This document shows, piece after piece, positions 11,913 to 35,251 of a stretch of 35,444 bases of DNA (the first letter of the stretch is position 1; each line of letters opens with the position of its first letter). The stretch comes from Planctomycetota bacterium (GTDB lineage: Bacteria; Planctomycetota; Planctomycetia; Planctomycetales; Planctomycetaceae): the NCBI GenBank assembly GCA_016872645.1, contig VGZH01000058.1, positions 1 to 35,444 of the forward strand. Reading direction: 5' to 3'. Below the pieces are notes generated by a model. It was not told where the DNA came from. It made no database searches and saw only the letters and a program-made list of their open reading frames with translations. Position numbers and translations under genes: made by a program.

Positions 11913-12311
11913 GCCGCGAGTCCTTTCGCTCCAAATACTGCTTGCGGCGAAGCCCTTCGCAGTTTGAATCAAAGTTGTCGTGAATCGCCAAGTGGTCGCA
12001 ATCGGCGTTCAAGATGCCTGACTTATCGCGAACGCGGATGAGTCCGGAAAAATATCCTCGGTCGCCAATGACGGAAATTAACAATGCGCAGCCGACGAAC
12101 CGGCACAACCGTTACGGCTTCACAGTCGCCGAGCGGTGGGACGTGGGAGCTCCGGCAAAATTTGCCTGGGCCGGCCGTTTCGTCGAGCTCTGAAAGGTAC
12201 ATGGGGGGCAAGACGGCACTTTTCCCGCTCGGCTCATTTTGTATTCATTTGAATTCAAAATCCTCAACAGATCTGCTAGGCTTGGCCGACACACAGACAG
12301 GAGCGTGTCGG
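11913..12311. other. 399-base divergent intergenic region
   Basis: This gap lies between the second porin (-) and lexA (+). It contains the 26-bp palindrome described separately, about 50 bases before lexA, and a small near-palindrome GCGAAG-CC-CTTCGC at about 11947-11960 near the porin start. No gene-like open frame is seen in it, and no confident -10/-35 pair could be assigned. Confidence 0.5.
12236..12261. promoter_or_regulatory. Candidate LexA operator: 26-bp near-perfect palindrome
   Basis: Positions 12236-12261 read the same on both strands at 22 of 26 bases. Outer arms ATTTTG / CAAAAT and inner arms ATTCA / TGAAT surround an AT-rich centre. It lies 50 bases before the lexA-family start codon, where an autoregulatory operator would be. 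The motif differs from the Escherichia coli (CTGT-N8-ACAG), Gram-positive (GAAC-N4-GTTC) and alphaproteobacterial (GTTC-N7-GTTC) boxes. Binding by the adjacent repressor is inferred from position and symmetry. Confidence 0.6.
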
Positions 12312-12905
12312 ATGCAAACCACCAACCCCCTGAGCGAAGATGAAGTCCTGCGGTTTCTGCAACAGCAGCATTTGCAGGGGCGACCGTCACCGACGCTGCG
12401 TGAGATCGCGGCGCATGTCGGGCACAAGGCGACGCTCAGCGTGCAGCGAATTCTCGACCGGCTGGAGCAGCAAGGGTTGATCCGGCGTGAGGCACTGCAG
12501 GCCCGGAACATCCGACTGACGGCTCGGGCTGCACCGCAGCGCGGACTGCTGCTGATGGGACGCATTGCGGCCGGGGCGTTGGCCGAAGCGATCGAGGACC
12601 AGGAACTCTTTGATCTAGGCGAGGAGTACGACCCGGACACGCATCGTGGCCTGCGGGTAAGGGGAAACTCGATGATCGACGCGCATATTCTGGATGGCGA
12701 CATCGCCGTGATCCGTCTGCAGGAAACTTGCGCGGACGGCGAGATCGTCGCGGCCGAGGTCGATGGCGAGGCGACTCTCAAGCGGTTCTTTCAGCGCAAG
12801 GATCATGTGCTGCTCAAGCCGGAGAACAAGCGGATGAAACCGATTCGCGTGTCGGCGGACGTGACGATTCGCGGCGTGCTCGTGGGATTGATCCGGAGAC
12901 TGTGA
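12312..12905 (+). CDS. lexA: LexA-family SOS repressor
   Basis: This 197-residue protein has the two-domain LexA layout. An N-terminal winged helix covers about 1-70, with SPTLREIAAHVGHKATLSVQ as the recognition region and LEQQGLIRRE after it. The C-terminal S24 self-cleavage domain has the Ala87-Gly88 cleavage bond (RIAAG), catalytic Ser120 (RGNSM) and Lys157 (EATLKRF). LexA represses SOS genes until RecA filaments promote its self-cleavage. ATG 12312 has AGGAG at 12299-12303; the frame continues upstream without similarity and through the putative operator. It is the first gene of a tight operon with imuA three bases downstream, so it probably represses this mutagenesis cassette and itself. 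It could be a second, cassette-dedicated LexA. Confidence 0.95.
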   Translation: MQTTNPLSEDEVLRFLQQQHLQGRPSPTLREIAAHVGHKATLSVQRILDRLEQQGLIRREALQARNIRLTARAAPQRGLLLMGRIAAGALAEAIEDQELFDLGEEYDPDTHRGLRVRGNSMIDAHILDGDIAVIRLQETCADGEIVAAEVDGEATLKRFFQRKDHVLLKPENKRMKPIRVSADVTIRGVLVGLIRRL

Positions 12906-12908
12906 ACG

Positions 12909-13613
12909 ATGGCGACTCGCCAAATCATCGCCGAGTTATCTCAGCGAATCCGCACGATCGAGCGGACCAGCCAGCGCGCCGCGCCGCAAACCGATCTCGC
13001 GCTCAACGGCTTGCCGGGCTTGGAACGGTTGCTCGGCGACGCCGGTTGGCCGCGCGGATGTCTGGTCGAGTGGCTGGCGGAGGGACGCGGCGCGGGTTCG
13101 ACCAGTCTCGCGCTGTGGGCCAGTCGAGCGGCCTGGCGCGACAATCTGCTGGTGATGATCGACAGCCAGCGCGAGTGGCACGCTCCGGCCGCGATGTCCT
13201 TCGCGGTGGACTTGAACAAGACCGTGTTCATTCGCCCGGAGCAACCGCTCGATGCATTGTGGTCGCTGGAGCAGACGTTGCGGACGCGCGGCATCGGAGC
13301 GGTCGTGTGCGATGTTGACAAACTCTCGTCACAGGCCTGTCGGAGACTGCAGTTGGCGGCGGAGACCGGCGGCGGACTCGGCATCCTGCTACGACCGGCG
13401 ATGGCTCGCCGTCAGCCGTCATTCGCGGAGTACCGGTTTCTCGTCCAGCCGTTGCCGAACACGTCGGATGCGGCCGTGTCGCGGCGGTGGCGCGTGGAAT
13501 TGTTGCGTGCTCGGAGGCAGTTCGCTCAAAGGTCGATCGTCGTGGAACTCAGCAATGGCTCGGATGGTTTGTGTGTGGCTGCCGAACTGGCCTCTGCAAC
13601 GCCTGCGGCATGA
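12909..13613 (+). CDS. imuA: ImuA, translesion-synthesis accessory protein
   Basis: This 234-residue protein is a RecA/SulA-related protein of the ImuA family. ImuA works with ImuB and DnaE2 in DNA-damage-induced mutagenesis. The GLPGLERLLGDAGWPRGCLVEW opening and the ALWASRAAW helix are family-like. The region matching the RecA Walker A loop (AEGRGAGSTS, about 57-66) lacks the usual lysine, so ATP use is doubtful. It starts three bases after lexA ends and overlaps imuB by about 59 bases, which implies translational coupling. Identification rests on both sequence and its place between lexA and imuB. Confidence 0.9.
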   Translation: MATRQIIAELSQRIRTIERTSQRAAPQTDLALNGLPGLERLLGDAGWPRGCLVEWLAEGRGAGSTSLALWASRAAWRDNLLVMIDSQREWHAPAAMSFAVDLNKTVFIRPEQPLDALWSLEQTLRTRGIGAVVCDVDKLSSQACRRLQLAAETGGGLGILLRPAMARRQPSFAEYRFLVQPLPNTSDAAVSRRWRVELLRARRQFAQRSIVVELSNGSDGLCVAAELASATPAA

Positions 13614-15168
13614 GCGGCCGGAATTGCGAGACCGGCCGGTCGTGTTGTTCTCGAACACCGGAAACCGCGGCCCGCGCGTCACCGCCACCGACGCAACGGT
13701 CGGCCTTACGATCGGCATGCCGCTGGCCGAAGCGGAAGCGTTGCTCGCCGGACAGCCCGGCATCGCCGCGCACATCGAACGGCATGATCCCGCCGCCGAT
13801 GTCGCCGCACTGCGCGAGCTGGCTCGATCGTGCAATGCGTTCTCGCCACTGTTCGGCATCGAAGAAGCGGAGTCGCCGGAGTGCGTGCTGCTCGACGTGA
13901 CCGGCTGCGAGCACTTGTTCGGCAGTGAGCACAACTTGGTCAACACGATCACCAACGATTTCCAGCAGCGCGACTTTCAAGTGCGCGCCGCGCTCGCACC
14001 GACCATCGGAGCCGCATGGGCCATGGCGCATCACCGTAGCCCGACCCCTTGTAGGTCGGTCAATTGCCAAGGGGATTTGAATCGGTCAGGCCACAAGGGC
14101 CTGAGCTACGAAACGCTCGCGCCGCTGCCAGTCACAGCTTTGCGATTACCACCAAAAATCATCGAGACGTTGCACGAATTGGGACTGCGTCGCATCGGCC
14201 AGTTGCGAGCCTTGCCGCGTGAGACGTTGCCGTCGCGATTCGGAGCCGAGTTGCTCAAGCGGCTCGATCAAGCTTTCGGCGACGCCCCCGAGTTGCTCGT
14301 TCCAGAACGGCCGCTTGAACCAGTCGCGACGACGTGGGTCACGGACGAGCCGCTCACCGATCGCGAGTCGCTGAAGTTCGTCGTCGGCCAGTTGCTCGAC
14401 GAGTTGCTCGGCCGGCTCAAGCCGCGGCGCGAAGGAGCACGGCAACTGTTCTGCCAGATCAAAGGGACCGCCGCGCGACCCATCGAGTTCGTTCTGAATC
14501 TCGTCAGCCCCTGCGATGTCGCGAAGCACTTGCTGGAATTGCTCGGCCTGCAAATTGATCGAACCGATCTGCCCGAAGGGATTTCGTTCGTCCGATTGGA
14601 AGCGACCAGCATCGCCTCGCTCGCGACACGTCAGCGCGACCTGTTCGGCTTCGAGACCAACACCGACACACATCGCGAAGTCAGCTCGCTGCTGGATCGC
14701 CTGAGTAATCGACTGGGTGCGAGCGCCGTCGTCCGCGCAATGCCGCTGCCGGACCCTCAACCCGAGTTGTCGGTCACGCACGATTCGGTTGCTCGGGAGT
14801 GCCGTGTGTCAGCACCGATTTCAATTGCTTCCGTCCAGATCCCAAGGCGACCAACAATCCAAAGCGGTGCTGACACACCGCACTCCAAAGAACTTCGTCC
14901 CATCCGTCCGCTGCGGCTGTTCGCGCCGCCGCAGCGGATTGAGGCGACGGACGCCGGGCCGGAAGGGGCACCGATGAACTTTCGCTGGGACCATCGCGAA
15001 CACCGTGTCATCCGCAGTTGGGGCCCCGAGCGCATCGAAACCGGCTGGTGGCGCGAACAATCTATCTGTCGCGACTACTTCCGCGTCGAGACGCAAACCG
15101 GCCAGCACTTCTGGCTGTTCCGCTGCTTCGATCAAGCCGCCTGGTTCCTGCACGGAGCTTTCGACTGA
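13555..15168 (+). CDS. imuB: ImuB, inactive Y-family polymerase-like mutasome hub
   Basis: This 537-residue protein is ImuB, a Y-family polymerase homologue that has lost catalysis and bridges DnaE2 to the sliding clamp. The N-terminus reads VCVWLPNWPLQRL instead of the metal-binding DxDxFF motif. The LLDVTGCEHLFG segment (111-123) is characteristic of the family and lacks the catalytic SxDE. A clamp-binding-like QRDLF motif is at 360-364. Two translated repeat elements interrupt family sequence, at about residues 161-186 and 415-444, making the protein slightly long. I took ATG 13555; ATG 13564 is equally possible. The start overlaps imuA, and dnaE2 begins two bases after the stop. Confidence 0.92.
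   Translation: MARMVCVWLPNWPLQRLRHERPELRDRPVVLFSNTGNRGPRVTATDATVGLTIGMPLAEAEALLAGQPGIAAHIERHDPAADVAALRELARSCNAFSPLFGIEEAESPECVLLDVTGCEHLFGSEHNLVNTITNDFQQRDFQVRAALAPTIGAAWAMAHHRSPTPCRSVNCQGDLNRSGHKGLSYETLAPLPVTALRLPPKIIETLHELGLRRIGQLRALPRETLPSRFGAELLKRLDQAFGDAPELLVPERPLEPVATTWVTDEPLTDRESLKFVVGQLLDELLGRLKPRREGARQLFCQIKGTAARPIEFVLNLVSPCDVAKHLLELLGLQIDRTDLPEGISFVRLEATSIASLATRQRDLFGFETNTDTHREVSSLLDRLSNRLGASAVVRAMPLPDPQPELSVTHDSVARECRVSAPISIASVQIPRRPTIQSGADTPHSKELRPIRPLRLFAPPQRIEATDAGPEGAPMNFRWDHREHRVIRSWGPERIETGWWREQSICRDYFRVETQTGQHFWLFRCFDQAAWFLHGAFD
14035..14110. repeat. In-frame palindromic repeat in imuB (family 1, copy A)
   Basis: This 76-bp element ends in CGTAGC / GCTACG inverted termini. 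It contains two hairpins, GACC-ccttgta-GGTC and CAGGCC-acaag-GGCCTG. Its reverse complement aligns with the intergenic copy at 18573-18654. Both share CAGGCCCTTGTGGCCTGA in one arm and ACAAGGGGTC in the other. It is translated as about 25 residues (PTPCRSVNCQGDLNRSGHKG) between the family segments AAWAMAHH and LAPLPVTALRLPP. Confidence 0.8.
14796..14886. repeat. In-frame inverted-repeat element in imuB (family 2)
   Basis: Arms of 22 bp at 14796-14817 and 14865-14886 match at 21 of 22 positions (GGAGTGC then GTGTGTCAGCACCG). Each arm folds on itself (CGGTG / CACCG). The right border continues as CTTTGGAGTGC when read outward, resembling the border of the element at 20885-21020. It is translated in frame as about 30 residues of ImuB near the clamp-motif side of the protein. 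Confidence 0.8.
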
Positions 15169-15170
15169 TC

Positions 15171-18100
15171 ATGCCCGAACAACCTCCCAGCAAACGCCAA
15201 CCAACGTGTAGCCCAAGCCCTTTTGTCCTGGGCGATTCGCAGCAACACCGGAATCGACCGAGCCACAATATCTCGGGCGACCGTGAGCCGCTGGCAAAGT
15301 GCGGTGATGCTGACTCGCCCCTTGCCTACGCCGAACTGCATTGCCGTTCCAATTTCTCGTTTCTCGAAGGGGCGTCGCACCCGGACGAACTGGTCGCGCG
15401 AGCCGCCGCTCTGGGACTGTCCGCGCTGGCGATCACGGATCGCAACAGTCTTGCAGGGGTCGTGCGAGCTCACGTCGCCGCGAAGGAATCGAAACTCAAG
15501 CTGCTGATCGGCGCAGAGATCGCGCCGCTGGATGCGCCGCCGATCGTGTTGTGGTCGATGCATCGCGCTGGCTACGCGAACCTCTGCCAGCTGATCACTC
15601 GCGGCCGACGGAATGCTCCGAAGGGGGAGTGTCGGCTGATGTTCGCCGACATTGCCGAGCACGCCGCAGGACTGCTGGCGGGAGTCGTGTTGAGTCGCGG
15701 GATGAGGGTCGAGAGTTTGAAAGTCCACTGTGGTTCACCCTCAACCCTCAACTCTCAGCTCTCAACTCTTTCAGCGGCCTTCGGCGACCGAACGTACGCG
15801 ATCACAGAACTGCATCGCGGGCCTGAGGACCGACAGCGGTTGCAGGGCGCGATGCGGCTCGCGCGGGACGCCGGTTTGCCGCTCATTGCGGCAAACGACG
15901 TGTATTGTCACGTGCGCGAGCGGCAGCCACTTCAAGAAGTGCTGACGGCGATCCAGCACGGCTGCACGGTCGCGGAACTGGGTGAGCGACGATTCCCGAA
16001 TGCCGAGCGGCATCTCAAGTCGGCCGCGGAGATGGCCACGCTCTTCGCCGAGTGTCCTGATGCAGTGGCTCGGACAATCGACGTAGCTGCTCGCTGCCAG
16101 TTCTCGCTCGACGAATTGCGGTACGAGTACCCGGAGGAATTGTGTCCGCGCGGGCTGACTCCAATTCAGCATCTCATCAATCTGACGTGGCGCGGAGCCA
16201 AAGACCGCTATCCGCGCGGCGTGCCGGACAAAGTGCAGAGGCTCATCGAACACGAACTGAAATTGATCGATGAGCTGAAATACGCAGCGTACTTTCTGAC
16301 CGTGTGGGATCTCGTTCGCTTCGCACGCGAGCGGGACATCTTGTGCCAGGGACGCGGTTCGGCGGCAAACTCGGCGGTCTGTTTTTGTCTGGGGGTAACG
16401 TCGGTCGATCCCGATCGAATCGACGTGCTGTTCGAGCGGTTTATCAGCCGCGAGCGCGGGGAGGCTCCCGACATCGACGTCGATTTCGAGCACGAGCGGC
16501 GCGAAGAAGTCATCCAGTACCTCTACGAAAAATACGGCCGCGAACGAGCGGGGATGACCGCCGAGGTCATCAGCTATCGGCCTCGCTCGGCGGTGCGCGA
16601 CGTCGGCAAGGCCCTTGGCTTGTCGCTGGATCGCGTGGATGTGCTCGCCAAGCAAGTCGATCATTTGCACGATCGCGACAAACTGGAAGCCCGTTTTCGC
16701 GAGGTCGGATTTCCGCTGGAGTCGCGGCTTGGCCAGCAACTCATCAAACTGGTCGAAGAGGTCTTGGATTTCCCGCGTCACCTGTCGCAGCACGTCGGCG
16801 GAATGGTGCTGACGAATGGCCTGCTGTGCGAACTGGTCCCGATCGAGAACGCCGCCATGCCCGGCCGCACGGTCATCGAATGGGACAAAGATGACCTCGA
16901 TGCGCTCGGCATCCTGAAAGTCGATGTGCTGGCGCTGGGCATGTTGACCGCGATTCGCAAATGCTTCGAGCTGGTGCATCGACATCATGGCCGCGAGCTT
17001 TCACTGGCGAACATCCCGGCTTACGACCACCGCGTGTTCGAGATGATCGGCCGCTCAGACACGATGGGCGTCTTCCAGATCGAGAGTCGCGCACAGATGT
17101 CGATGCTGCCGCGACTCAAGCCACGCTGCTTTTACGATCTGGTGATCGAGGTTGCGATCGTTCGTCCGGGACCGATCCAAGGGGACATGGTCCACCCGTA
17201 TCTGCGTCGTCGCAGCGGCGAGGAAAAAGTCGAGTACCCCGACGATCGCATCCGCGCGGTGCTGGAGAAAACGCTGGGCGTGCCAATCTTCCAGGAGCAA
17301 GCGATGCGGCTGGTGGTTGTCGCCGCCGGCTTCACGCCCGGCGAGGCCGATCAACTCCGCCGCGCGATGAGCGTCTGGCGACGGCGGGGAGTCATCGATC
17401 AGTTTCAAAAGAAACTCATCGATGGCATGACCGCGAACGGCTACTCGGCCGAGTTCGCCGACCGAGTCTTTCGGCAACTGCGCGGCTTCGGCGAATACGG
17501 CTTCCCCGAAAGTCATGCCTGCTCATTCGCGCTGCTGGTCTGGGCCTCGGCGTGGTTGAAGTTTCATTACCCGGCCGCGTTCGCCGCCGCACTGCTCAAC
17601 AGCCAGCCGATGGGTTTTTACGCGCCGGCCCAGCTGGTGGCAGATGCTCGCCAGCATGGCGTCGCGGTACTGCCCGTCGATGTGAACAACAGCGAGTGGG
17701 ACTGTGTTTTGGAGAAACGACAAGGAGAGGGGATGACACGGAGAAGGGGAGACAAGGAGATCGACCGCAGCAAAGAGTCCTTTCCGTCATCTTCGTCTTC
17801 AAGTCTCCTTATCTCCCCTTCTCCTTGTCTCCCTCTCTCCCCTTGCCTGCGACTCGGCTTCCGGATGCTCGCGGGGTTTTCCGCCGCAGACGCCGCACAA
17901 ATCGTCTTGCAGCGGGACTCGCGACCGTTCACGTCGCTGGATGAGTTCGCCGAGCGAACCGGCTTGAGCAACTCAGTGCTGACTCGGTTGTCGCGCGCCG
18001 ATGCGTTTGCTTCGTTGCAGCTTGGCCGCCGTTCGGCGCTGTGGCAGTCGCTGCCCGATCATTCGCCGTCACTGTTGCTGGAAACCGAACCTGTCGGCAG

Positions 18101-18548
18101 CGAACCAACCGTCTCGCTGCCAAAGCTGGGGGCGTTCGGCGAAGTCGTTGCGGACTATCGGACGATCGGCCTCTCATTGCGAGGGCATCCGCTGAAGTTC
18201 TTGCGGCCGCAACTCGACGCGCGCCGCATCACTCCGTCCAATCGGTTGCCTTCCACTAAAGATGGCCGCTTTCTGCGTGTGGCCGGACTGGTCTTGATGC
18301 GTCAGCGGCCGAGTACTGCCAAGGGGATCACATTCGTGACACTCGAAGACGAAACGGGCATCGTCAACTTGATCGTCCGACCGGAAGTCTGGGAACGACA
18401 CCATCAAGCTGCTCACACCGCGACCATGCTGCTGGCTCATGGCATCTTGCAGCGTCACGATTCGGTGATCCACGTCCTGGTCAACAGACTGGAAGACTTG
18501 TCGCGCGAACTGGCTCAAATCGAAATCGCGTCGCGCGACTTTCGCTGA
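15171..18548 (+). CDS. dnaE2: Error-prone DNA polymerase DnaE2
   Basis: This is a 1125-residue C-family polymerase alpha subunit of the DnaE2 type, the catalytic member of the ImuA-ImuB-DnaE2 mutasome. The PHP domain starts with AYAELHCRSNFSFLEGASHPDEL (about 45-66) and ITDRNSLAGV. The catalytic acidic motif PDIDVDFE is at 433-440. The finger region includes RPGPIQGDMVHPYLRR, and ESHACSFALLVWASAWLK leads to the HhH region. An OB fold lies near the end (FLRVAGLVLMRQRPSTAKGITFVTLEDETG). It is longer than most relatives because three repeat-derived segments are translated: about residues 12-41, 178-202 and 851-893. The start ATG lies two bases after the imuB stop, with no alternative start nearer the PHP domain. 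A palindromic repeat and a converging SRAP gene follow. Confidence 0.95.
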   Translation: MPEQPPSKRQPTCSPSPFVLGDSQQHRNRPSHNISGDREPLAKCGDADSPLAYAELHCRSNFSFLEGASHPDELVARAAALGLSALAITDRNSLAGVVRAHVAAKESKLKLLIGAEIAPLDAPPIVLWSMHRAGYANLCQLITRGRRNAPKGECRLMFADIAEHAAGLLAGVVLSRGMRVESLKVHCGSPSTLNSQLSTLSAAFGDRTYAITELHRGPEDRQRLQGAMRLARDAGLPLIAANDVYCHVRERQPLQEVLTAIQHGCTVAELGERRFPNAERHLKSAAEMATLFAECPDAVARTIDVAARCQFSLDELRYEYPEELCPRGLTPIQHLINLTWRGAKDRYPRGVPDKVQRLIEHELKLIDELKYAAYFLTVWDLVRFARERDILCQGRGSAANSAVCFCLGVTSVDPDRIDVLFERFISRERGEAPDIDVDFEHERREEVIQYLYEKYGRERAGMTAEVISYRPRSAVRDVGKALGLSLDRVDVLAKQVDHLHDRDKLEARFREVGFPLESRLGQQLIKLVEEVLDFPRHLSQHVGGMVLTNGLLCELVPIENAAMPGRTVIEWDKDDLDALGILKVDVLALGMLTAIRKCFELVHRHHGRELSLANIPAYDHRVFEMIGRSDTMGVFQIESRAQMSMLPRLKPRCFYDLVIEVAIVRPGPIQGDMVHPYLRRRSGEEKVEYPDDRIRAVLEKTLGVPIFQEQAMRLVVVAAGFTPGEADQLRRAMSVWRRRGVIDQFQKKLIDGMTANGYSAEFADRVFRQLRGFGEYGFPESHACSFALLVWASAWLKFHYPAAFAAALLNSQPMGFYAPAQLVADARQHGVAVLPVDVNNSEWDCVLEKRQGEGMTRRRGDKEIDRSKESFPSSSSSSLLISPSPCLPLSPCLRLGFRMLAGFSAADAAQIVLQRDSRPFTSLDEFAERTGLSNSVLTRLSRADAFASLQLGRRSALWQSLPDHSPSLLLETEPVGSEPTVSLPKLGAFGEVVADYRTIGLSLRGHPLKFLRPQLDARRITPSNRLPSTKDGRFLRVAGLVLMRQRPSTAKGITFVTLEDETGIVNLIVRPEVWERHHQAAHTATMLLAHGILQRHDSVIHVLVNRLEDLSRELAQIEIASRDFR
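15205..15293. repeat. Repeat-derived N-terminal segment of dnaE2 (family 1-like, degenerate)
   Basis: The sequence GTAGCCCAAGCCCTTTTGTCCTGGGCGATTC resembles one arm of the family 1 repeats. It is followed by an imperfect inverted arm ending GACCGAGCC-CTCGGGCGACC; the loop is flanked by CGATTC / GAATCG. It is translated as residues about 12-41 of DnaE2, before the PHP domain begins. The boundaries are approximate because this copy has diverged. Confidence 0.55.
15701..15775. repeat. Purine/pyrimidine-asymmetric inverted repeat in dnaE2 (family 3)
   Basis: A purine-rich left part (GATGAGGGTCGAGAGTTTGA) is followed by a pyrimidine-rich right part with repeated CTCAACCCTCAACTCTCA units, able to pair imperfectly. 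It is translated as RVESLKVHCGSPSTLNSQLS, about residues 178-202 of DnaE2, between the family segments GLLAGVVLS and AAFGDRTYAITELHRG. Confidence 0.65.
17721..17847. repeat. Long purine/pyrimidine inverted repeat in dnaE2 (family 4)
   Basis: The left core GGAGAAGGGGAGACAAGGAG (17741-17761) pairs with TCTCCTTATCTCCCCTTCTC (17805-17825) with one mismatch, inside wider GGAG-rich and CTCC-rich arms. It is translated as Arg/Lys/Glu-rich then Ser/Pro/Leu-rich sequence (about residues 851-893), inserted between SEWDCVLE and RLGFRMLAGF, which are normally nearly adjacent in DnaE2. Confidence 0.75.
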
Positions 18549-18572: not shown

Positions 18573-18654
18573 CGTGGCCCAGGCCCTTGTGGCCTGAAGG
18601 ATTTGCCCAAAGCCCGAAGGTGAAATCATTCGACCCACAAGGGGTCAGACTACG
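18573..18654. repeat. Palindromic repeat between dnaE2 and SRAP gene (family 1, copy B)
   Basis: This is an 82-bp element of the same family as the imuB copy at 14035-14110. It has CAGGCC-cttgt-GGCCTG and GACCC-acaag-GGGTC hairpins and a terminal GACTACG. Its right end supplies the TAG stop codon (18650-18652) of the minus-strand SRAP gene. It may also serve as a transcription barrier between the convergent genes. Confidence 0.8.
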
Positions 18655-19312
18655 GGCGCCGCGGATCAACTTCGTTGCGAGCGTTGTTGATAACATCGCT
18701 GACTGGCTCGGCCCGCATCTCATCGGTGGGATACGGTACCAATAACTTGGACAACACTTCGGCGTCATCCAGCTGCGGGTCCAGCCACACGTTGTAGTCC
18801 GACCGTTTGAGGATCACCGGCATGCGATCATGCACCGTCGCCATCAGTTCGTTCGGAGACGTTGTCAGCGTCGCACAGGTTTCGATGGACGTACCATCCG
18901 GAGCCTGCCATTTCTCCCACATGCCGGCGAAGGCAAACAGCCCGCCGCTGCGCAATGCGAACCAGTGCGGAACTTTCTTTTTGCCTTCGCGCTTCCATTC
19001 GTAAAAGCCATCGACCGGAATCAGACATCTCCGCTTTCGAAATGCCGAACGAAACGATGGCTTGTCAGCGACAGTCTCAGCCCGTGCATTGATCAGACTG
19101 GCCGCCAGCTTTGTGTCCGTCGCCCAAAACGGAATCAGCCCCCACCGCAACCGCACCGGCTCACGGCCGCCGCTTATCGCTCGAACGGCCAGAACCGACT
19201 GAGTGGGAGCGATGTTAAACCGAGGCGTGTCCCAATCCACCTGATCACGGATCAGCTCAAAAAAAATCGCGATCTCGCTGGCCGAGGCTCGCAACGTGAA
19301 TCGACCGCACAT
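18650..19312 (-). CDS. SRAP-domain protein (YedK/HMCES), abasic-site cross-linker
   Basis: This 220-residue protein is of the SOS-response-associated peptidase family, which forms a covalent thiazolidine link to abasic sites in single-stranded DNA and shields them. Catalytic Cys2 is exposed after Met1 removal (MCGRFTL). Asn75 (NARAET), Glu105 (DGFYEW) and His161 (VHDRMPV) are in their conserved places, and RWGLIPFWA is present. GGGGTGA lies upstream of the ATG. The gene converges on the lexA-imuA-imuB-dnaE2 operon, which fits a DNA-damage role. Its stop codon lies inside a repeat element, so the last few residues may have been changed by insertion. Confidence 0.95.
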   Translation of the reverse strand: MCGRFTLRASASEIAIFFELIRDQVDWDTPRFNIAPTQSVLAVRAISGGREPVRLRWGLIPFWATDTKLAASLINARAETVADKPSFRSAFRKRRCLIPVDGFYEWKREGKKKVPHWFALRSGGLFAFAGMWEKWQAPDGTSIETCATLTTSPNELMATVHDRMPVILKRSDYNVWLDPQLDDAEVLSKLLVPYPTDEMRAEPVSDVINNARNEVDPRRP

Positions 19313-20880: not shown

Positions 20881-20884
20881 GATC

Positions 20885-21020
20885 TGGAGTGCTCCGGCTC
20901 GACGGAGCTTTAGTTTCGCCGCGCGGCGGCTTTCTAGGAATTGACTGCGTTTGCGAAGCCATCGTGATTTCAAAGGGCTTCACCCAAAAAAACCAAGCTC
21001 CGCCGAGCCGGAGCACTCCA
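20885..21020. repeat. 136-bp MITE-like inverted-repeat element
   Basis: The terminal arms at 20885-20910 and 20995-21020 are 26 bp and match at 25 positions (TGGAGTGCTCCGGCTCG, then C, then GGAGCTT). Each arm forms its own hairpin (GCTCCG / CGGAGC). The interior holds a GC palindrome (CGCCGCGCGGCG) and a GAAGCC / GGCTTC pair. It encodes no protein and nearly fills the gap between the Gfo/Idh and HEAT-repeat genes. No short target duplication could be confirmed. Confidence 0.85.
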
Positions 21021-21054
21021 AATCACACCGTCCTCAACGATTAGGACCGAAACC

Positions 21055-26509: not shown

Positions 26510-26573
26510 TAGCACGACGCGCAAGCGAGTGATACCCAGGCTGATAGAAACCCCTCGCTTGCGCGTCGGGCTA
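26510..26573. repeat. REP-like inverted repeat (family 5, copy 1)
   Basis: Arms of 20 bp (TAGCACGACGCGCAAGCGAG and its partner TAGCCCGACGCGC, then AAGCGAG) match at 19 positions around a 24-base centre. The right end supplies the TAG stop codon (26571-26573) of the gamma-glutamyltransferase gene. A second member is at 35193-35251. It occupies most of the gap before the VOC gene. Confidence 0.8.
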
Positions 26574-28987: not shown

Positions 28988-29043
28988 AGGTTGGGACTCT
29001 GTCCTAACCGTTTCTCATGCAGATCGGGACAGAGTCCCAACCT
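28988..29043. repeat. Perfect 17-bp inverted repeat between DUF1501 and Spy-like genes
   Basis: AGGTTGGGACTCTGTCC at 28988-29004 is repeated exactly inverted at 29027-29043. Each arm contains a small GGAC-tct-GTCC hairpin, as in REP doublets. It lies 16 bases beyond the DUF1501 stop codon and could attenuate transcription or protect the upstream mRNA. Confidence 0.75.
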
Positions 29044-35192: not shown

Positions 35193-35251
35193 CAGCACGA
35201 CGCACCAGCCAGTGATCTTCGGCAAAGACCTCTCGCTGGCGCGTCGTGCTA
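35193..35251. repeat. REP-like inverted repeat (family 5, copy 2)
   Basis: The left arm AGCACGACGCACCAGCCAG and the right arm, read inverted as TAGCACGACGCGCCAGCGAG, bracket a centre related to that of the copy at 26510-26573 (both contain GTGAT near the left arm). It lies between the partial DUF1501 gene and the sigma-factor operon. Confidence 0.75.

Follow-up and report, generated by a model that had tools for sequence, protein, structure and literature searches.

In-frame repeat-like inserts in the imuB and dnaE2 genes of a planctomycete genus

How can two adjacent genes of an error-prone repair operon carry several repeat-like segments and keep their reading frames open, and why should such segments gather there? 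These questions are raised by contig VGZH01000058.1 of the Planctomycetota assembly GCA_016872645.1, a stretch of 35,444 nucleotides (nt) analyzed at its full length (the window), which is contig C58 of the 5.76-Mb genome designated G000. The window contains a mutasome operon, in which the original prediction placed five short inverted-repeat elements, two within imuB and three within dnaE2, all translated in frame. Our analysis revealed that such inserts (E1 to E5) have counterparts in the imuB and dnaE2 genes of most genomes of the genus, and that the same loops hold different elements in different species. The concentration in these two genes is real genus-wide, yet it is not confined to the operon.

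Five inserts and their counterparts across the genus

The two host genes, the five inserts and a related intergenic sequence are located in the window as follows:

13573..15168, + strand: imuB (Pfam PF00817; orthologues in congeners; start uncertain)
14035..14110, + strand: E1, a GTAG...CTAC inverted dimer resembling repetitive extragenic palindromic (REP) sequences, in frame, ImuB residues approx. 154–179 (numbered from 13576)
14796..14886, + strand: E2, a GGAG...CTCC inverted dimer, in frame, ImuB residues 407–437
15171..18548, + strand: dnaE2 (PF07733, PF17657, PF02811, PF14579, PF01336)
15208..15281, + strand: E3, a decayed member of the E1 family in the N-terminal tail of DnaE2, with a GTAG start and similar length
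15688..15772, + strand: E4, a CTCAACCCTCAAC-type repeat, DnaE2 residues approx. 174–202, with no significant palindrome
17719..17843, + strand: E5, a palindrome whose first arm is purine-rich and whose second arm is pyrimidine-rich, DnaE2 residues approx. 851–892
18573..18655, no strand assigned: an intergenic sequence related to E1, where the dnaE2 and SRAP genes converge (folding z score −2.17)

Both reading frames are open through all five inserts. When each element was folded and compared with 200 shuffled sequences, E1, E2 and E5 (z scores of −4.45, −8.13 and −5.76, respectively) were matched by none of the shuffles (0 of 200 in each case), while a palindrome was supported neither for E3 (z −1.43, 18 of 200 shuffles equally good) nor for E4 (z 0.11, 108 of 200). 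The five repeat-like segments lie where they had been predicted, in open frames, but two of them cannot be called palindromes on these tests. A GTAG motif stands beside the hairpin at both ends of E1 and at the left end of E3; E2 has GGAG instead, and E4 and E5 have neither. E1 and E2 are built as inverted dimers, and E4 is a member of a CTCAACTCTCAAC-type repeat. Since E3 can be aligned with members of the E1 family and begins with GTAG as they do, we count four families. The intergenic relatives reported in the note for at least one family are represented by the E1-like sequence listed at 18573..18655.

Alignment with congeneric orthologues, on which the inserts were marked, gave net gains of 9 residues for E1 (versus G003 and G008; 15 versus G011, which keeps a remnant), 16 for E2 (versus G003), 27 for E3 (versus G003 and G009), approx. 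11 to 13 for E4 (versus G003, G008 and G011) and 35 for E5 (versus G004). This range of approx. 9–35 residues replaces the 25–45 residues first claimed for each element. Length differences preserve the frame in the open copies. Broken are the imuB gene of G004, which is frameshifted at an element, and the dnaE2 gene of G008, which contains one in-frame stop. The remaining copies are open wherever they were compared (G010 and G003 were covered in part).

The inserts coincide wholly (E1, E2, E3 and E5) or partly (E4) with segments modelled at low confidence. In the ImuB model, which is modest (predicted template-modelling score, pTM, 0.39), the predicted local distance difference test (pLDDT) value falls below 50 at residues 154–181 (E1) and 407–446 (E2); in the DnaE2 model (pTM 0.79) it does so at 1–48 (E3) and 854–887 (E5), and within E4 only at 181–189, the remainder being modelled as helix ends. 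The cores of both genes are under purifying selection: between G000 and G011 the nonsynonymous (dN) and synonymous (dS) divergences were 0.064 and 0.525 for dnaE2 (dN/dS 0.12) and 0.093 and 0.423 for imuB (dN/dS 0.22). The insert codons drift, with ratios for shared inserts of approx. 0.26 to 1.5 on 21–90 codons where both values could be estimated, some of the alignments being doubtful.

DnaE2 orthologues were identified in 10 of the 12 genomes of the genus, G000 included, and were not found in G001 and G006; the mutasome copies of G010, G003 and G005 are partial. The imuB and dnaE2 genes of these 10 genomes contain 34 palindromes in 45.8 kb (32 in 40.9 kb without G000), distributed over nine genomes, G003 being the one that lacks them. 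In control genes of the genus we counted 16 palindromes inside 330 kb of coding DNA and 96 between genes (385 kb, eight genus genomes); this set consists of 20 stretches from contigs with RAYT, dnaE or mutasome matches and is thus not random. Against this background (expected 2.0) the excess in imuB and dnaE2 is approx. 16-fold. When every gene in 39 dnaE1 and RAYT loci was taken as another background, three palindromes lay inside 102.9 kb of coding DNA, and dnaE1 of the genus gave none in 37.1 kb (11 whole genes). For these counts, gene calling relied on a simple codon model that had been trained on G000. Shared ancestry inflates the raw number of palindromes; approx. 23 distinct events can be told apart by eye from site and sequence, still more than 10 times the expectation. 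The G000 operon by itself, with two palindromes of score ≥15 in approx. 5 kb, was picked post hoc and is therefore not significant alone.

The elements occur at (i) ImuB residues approx. 40, 115, 165 and 407, and (ii) DnaE2 residues approx. 14, 175, 500, 605, 853 and 974. Up to six distinct elements were identified at the imuB site approx. 407 and three at the dnaE2 site approx. 853. In G009 a second GTAG palindrome is nested within a copy of E1. Scars were also found: in G011 only the left E1 unit remains, in frame, and in G008 a single arm of the element at dnaE2 approx. 175 does so. The E5 site is empty in G004 and G005.

In the ten genera compared from elsewhere in the family, the sequences of E1 to E5 were not found, and the 44.6 kb of imuB and dnaE2 DNA contained one palindrome. 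This GTAG palindrome (G019, locus L176) occupies ImuB residues approx. 163–207, i.e. the same loop as E1, and is different from E1. A wider set of 80 DnaE2 loci from other taxa contained 11 in-gene palindromes, nine of them in imuB or dnaE2 (363 kb, 40% of the coding DNA in these loci) and two in neighbouring genes (553 kb; P 0.0055). Cases from alphaproteobacteria (L061, L072 and L101) are among them. One of the nine, in L036, sits upstream of the aligned dnaE2; without it the count is 8 of 10 (P approx. 0.011, by simple arithmetic).

Among other repair genes of the genus, UvrA contained 29 palindromes in 59.4 kb (19 of 30 loci scanned), representing approx. 20 distinct events by eye. PolA gave eight palindromes in 34.7 kb (13 loci) and Mfd seven in 29.7 kb (10 loci), which collapse by eye to approx. 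four events each (expected 1.7 and 1.4, respectively), and only UvrA therefore matches the mutasome. RecG-like genes contained none in 8.7 kb (four loci), and RecN was not found in any of the 12 genomes. The unusual concentration in a single operon that had been claimed thus holds for the genus but has an equal in UvrA, a lesser counterpart in PolA and Mfd, and nothing remarkable about it in G000 alone. Several further hosts were noted. The UvrA loci L327–L336 have frames of approx. 2300–2450 residues, with tandem UvrA-type matches in several genomes, and are decorated with palindromes. In G003, a 2655-residue kinase/WD40/TPR protein (L312:11290–19257, − strand) contains four in-frame palindromes, from which it follows that large multidomain proteins unrelated to repair can equal the density of the mutasome. 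ClpB matches have a near constant span (2583–2604 nt in seven full-length copies), and the variable open frames of ValS may contain inserts too.

Dispersed copies, candidate mobilizing enzymes and known relatives

Unit patterns (for E2 with up to four mismatches) were counted in 80 stretches of 20 kb of G000. Five of these (L215, L216, L220, L221 and L241) had been chosen for matches; they are included in the unit-pattern counts and excluded from the unbiased palindrome counts. E2 was the most frequent of the patterns tested, with 38 places (32 between genes, four at edges and two inside), 24 of which are two-way pairs, and it also predominated among the 40 scored of 231 candidates in a BLAST comparison of the whole operon with its own genome. 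Right units of E1 were found at seven places (five between genes, two inside) and left units at nine (six and three, respectively). One shuffle per stretch gave no unit-pattern match. E1 and E2 are therefore mostly intergenic, unlike E4, whose strict units occupy eight places, all of them inside genes (six single sense-strand units and two two-way pairs), and whose looser pattern occurs 12 times inside genes and three times between them. The gene preference of E4 rests on these eight strict or 12 of 15 looser places; in other pieces of the genus its patterns were found once inside and once between genes. E4-type CTCAACTCTCAAC repeats are present in L238, L244, L248, L255, L261, L275 and L276, several of them preceded by a purine-rich counterpart. 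A strict scan for purine/pyrimidine arms gave one place, and a relaxed purine-first scan gave four between genes and one inside in G000, and four between, two inside and one at an edge in other genus pieces, which indicates no preference for genes in this class overall. E1, E2 and E4 units thus occur in G000 outside imuB and dnaE2. The original observation is confirmed in part, and its reading as dispersed elements inserted in frame is largely upheld, with the corrections given here.

The ungapped palindrome scan, which at a score of ≥13 misses E1, E3 and E4, gave at a score of ≥15 104 palindromes in the 80 stretches plus the window, compared with two in shuffled sequences. In the 75 stretches not chosen for matches, 66 palindromes lie between genes, 10 inside and seven at edges. 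The ten host proteins are two DUF7133 proteins, a GntR, a PSCyt, a polyprenyl synthetase, a DUF58, an RNB exonuclease and a penicillin-binding transpeptidase, plus two without a family at E 1e-5. None of the ten showed a repair domain, although for one of the two without a family, the L239 host, the scan covered the C-terminal 1666 residues, which exclude the element.

Matches to Y1 transposases, 91 in total, are present in 11 of the 12 genus genomes, and in at least three of 30 RAYT loci (L184, L186 and L188) the gene is flanked left and right by one GTAG hairpin family. The RAYT class is a plausible source of the mobilizing enzyme. At 0.9–1.4 kb from a transposase match lie E2 (in L184) and the CGCTAGCG type (in L185 and in L203). 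Since no RAYT flanked by the families of the in-gene elements was found in the 30 loci, we speak of a REP-like build and assign the elements to no RAYT system.

The closest known precedent is the GTAG-tagged REPs described in PMC3733652, extracts of which report such REPs in several phyla, Planctomycetes included. According to these extracts, DnaE2 and further repair genes were already known to harbour REPs, and more than half of the in-gene inserts encode 20–30 residues; one species carries two double inserts in uvrA, and two Xanthomonas species have different REPs near the same recB site. The resemblance extends to the GTAG head, the hairpin, the inverted dimers, the mostly intergenic location with some copies in genes, and the repair-gene hosts. 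Several features set the present elements apart: E2 has GGAG, E4 and E5 have neither tag, and none of the 30 RAYT loci is flanked by E1–E5 families. The Rickettsia palindromic elements invoked as a precedent, which the extracts of PMC10969869 and PMC3733652 describe as several short palindrome families translated in frame inside genes, are comparable in their in-frame insertion into genes that stay open. They are not the nearest parallel, however, as the CGTC tag is absent from the ends of E1–E5 (read directly), the phylum is another one, and E1 and E2 are mostly intergenic. Miniature inverted-repeat transposable elements (MITEs), as outlined in the part of PMC10969869 consulted, are likewise small, dispersed, bordered by inverted repeats and devoid of a transposase gene; MITEs with terminal inverted repeats differ from the REP-like build of E1–E3, and the target-site duplication looked for as a MITE trait was not demonstrated, since the flanks of occupied and empty sites, inspected by eye, were too diverged.

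In the part of the literature covered, no closer report was found by title or by the start of the abstract. Compared with the extracts of PMC3733652, what is new here is the scale (several elements per gene throughout a genus), the refilling of loops by different elements (up to six per loop), the nesting, the scars and the controls. The remark made there in 2013, that chance is hard to credit for REPs in repair genes such as DnaE2, becomes a controlled pattern: the same genes and the same loops with different elements in related genomes. Whether repair proteins are repeatedly remodelled by mobile DNA can thereby be put to the test, and nature has supplied a set of in-frame insertions for one mutagenic polymerase.

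Explanations for the concentration in repair genes

Taken as a whole, the observations are probably best explained by miniature elements that are, or once were, mobile, that were filtered for frame, stops and loops, and that are most likely near-neutral passengers; any effect on protein function is presumptive. E1–E3 would be of REP/REPIN-like build, composed of inverted pairs of hairpins that carry a GTAG or GGAG head, and E4 and E5 would be repeats with purine/pyrimidine arms. Such elements could be transposed by Y1 (RAYT) transposases, would enter genes and intergenic spaces alike, and might be lost by deletion between their arms; in genes, selection would retain only in-frame, stop-free insertions in flexible loops. 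Mutasome and UvrA genes most likely collect inserts because they are retained and yet tolerate longer loops.

Five points weigh against this explanation: (i) none of the 12 in-gene element patterns lies within approx. 0.8 kb of a transposase match (30 of the 91 loci); (ii) E4 and E5 lack the GTAG tag and E4 resides inside genes, unlike REPs; (iii) no target-site duplication was demonstrated; (iv) passenger status alone leaves the strong bias towards UvrA and the mutasome unexplained; and (v) some shared inserts are closer at silent sites than the cores (for G004 and G009, a proportion of synonymous differences, pS, of 0.27 versus 0.65), a pattern not expected under plain neutral descent. This likeness may be due to conversion, to recurrent insertion or to selection acting on the hairpin.

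A combined alternative, in which mobile palindromes have their preferred long-term hosts in the mutasome and UvrA genes, whose fixed docking loops are occupied in turn and tune mutagenesis, with the E4/E5 class residing mainly in coding sequence, is in our view unlikely. We regard as equally unlikely the related proposal that the inserts were favoured because they alter the activity or control of translesion and repair enzymes and thereby the mutation rate, the hypermutator suggestion found in the extracts of PMC3733652. The density in imuB/dnaE2, uvrA, polA and mfd, set against the 16 palindromes in 330 kb elsewhere, speaks for it, as does the bias in other taxa (P 0.0055), although this weakens to approx. 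0.011 once the L036 palindrome, outside the aligned dnaE2, is set aside. It accords poorly with the drift of the insert codons, the replacement of one element by another at a site, the few events in polA and mfd (little over expectation), the lack of palindromes in dnaE1 and RecG-like genes, and the ten G000 hosts (one scanned in part) without a repair domain.

It is improbable that insertion is steered at the DNA level, by the mobilizing enzyme or by exposed single strands, to particular genes or loops. Loops that hold different elements from species to species, and the GTAG palindrome in the E1 loop of G019, a member of another genus, are what such targeting would produce, but the sites are predicted flexible segments, which selection alone could account for, and no common target motif is evident by eye (no systematic motif search was made).

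That the segments are ordinary, variable low-complexity loops of the two proteins is very improbable. The folds of E3 and E4, not clearly above those of shuffles, and the linkers that vary in length in other genera as well fit this idea, whereas the far better folds of E1, E2 and E5, the dispersed homologues of E1 and E2, and the element found within an element do not; for E1, E2 and E5 we reject it, and against it for E4 stand the eight places at which repeats of its type were found. Decaying pseudogenes that collect repeats, to which the frameshift in G004 and the stop in G008 might point, are highly improbable and are rejected on account of the purifying selection on the cores and the open frames of the other copies. 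An assembly artefact is rejected as well, strong palindromes being present in imuB/dnaE2 of nine of ten genus genomes and missing only from G003.

Surroundings of the operon in the window

The gene order is lexA, imuA-like, imuB, dnaE2; next comes an SRAP gene in convergent orientation. Upstream of imuB lie:

12084..12905, + strand: gene for a LexA-like SOS repressor, ahead of the mutasome genes (PF00717, PF01726)
12909..13613, + strand: imuA-like open reading frame of 234 amino acids, named from its place in the operon

No Pfam match was found for the imuA-like protein at E 0.001. The strongest named relatives of DnaE2 are from planctomycete assemblies (among the best 80 of 593). In the PDIDVD stretch of DnaE2 (434–439), which we take to be part of the active site, P434, D435, I436, D437 and D439 are invariant in 42 sequences.

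Further palindromes were observed between genes of the window. The one at 20881–21024 combines an E2-like GGAGTGC head with another stem and possibly represents a second GGAG-headed family. Others are located at 26510–26573, 35194–35250 and 28988–29043, the last of which resembles hairpins near the RAYT gene in L201.

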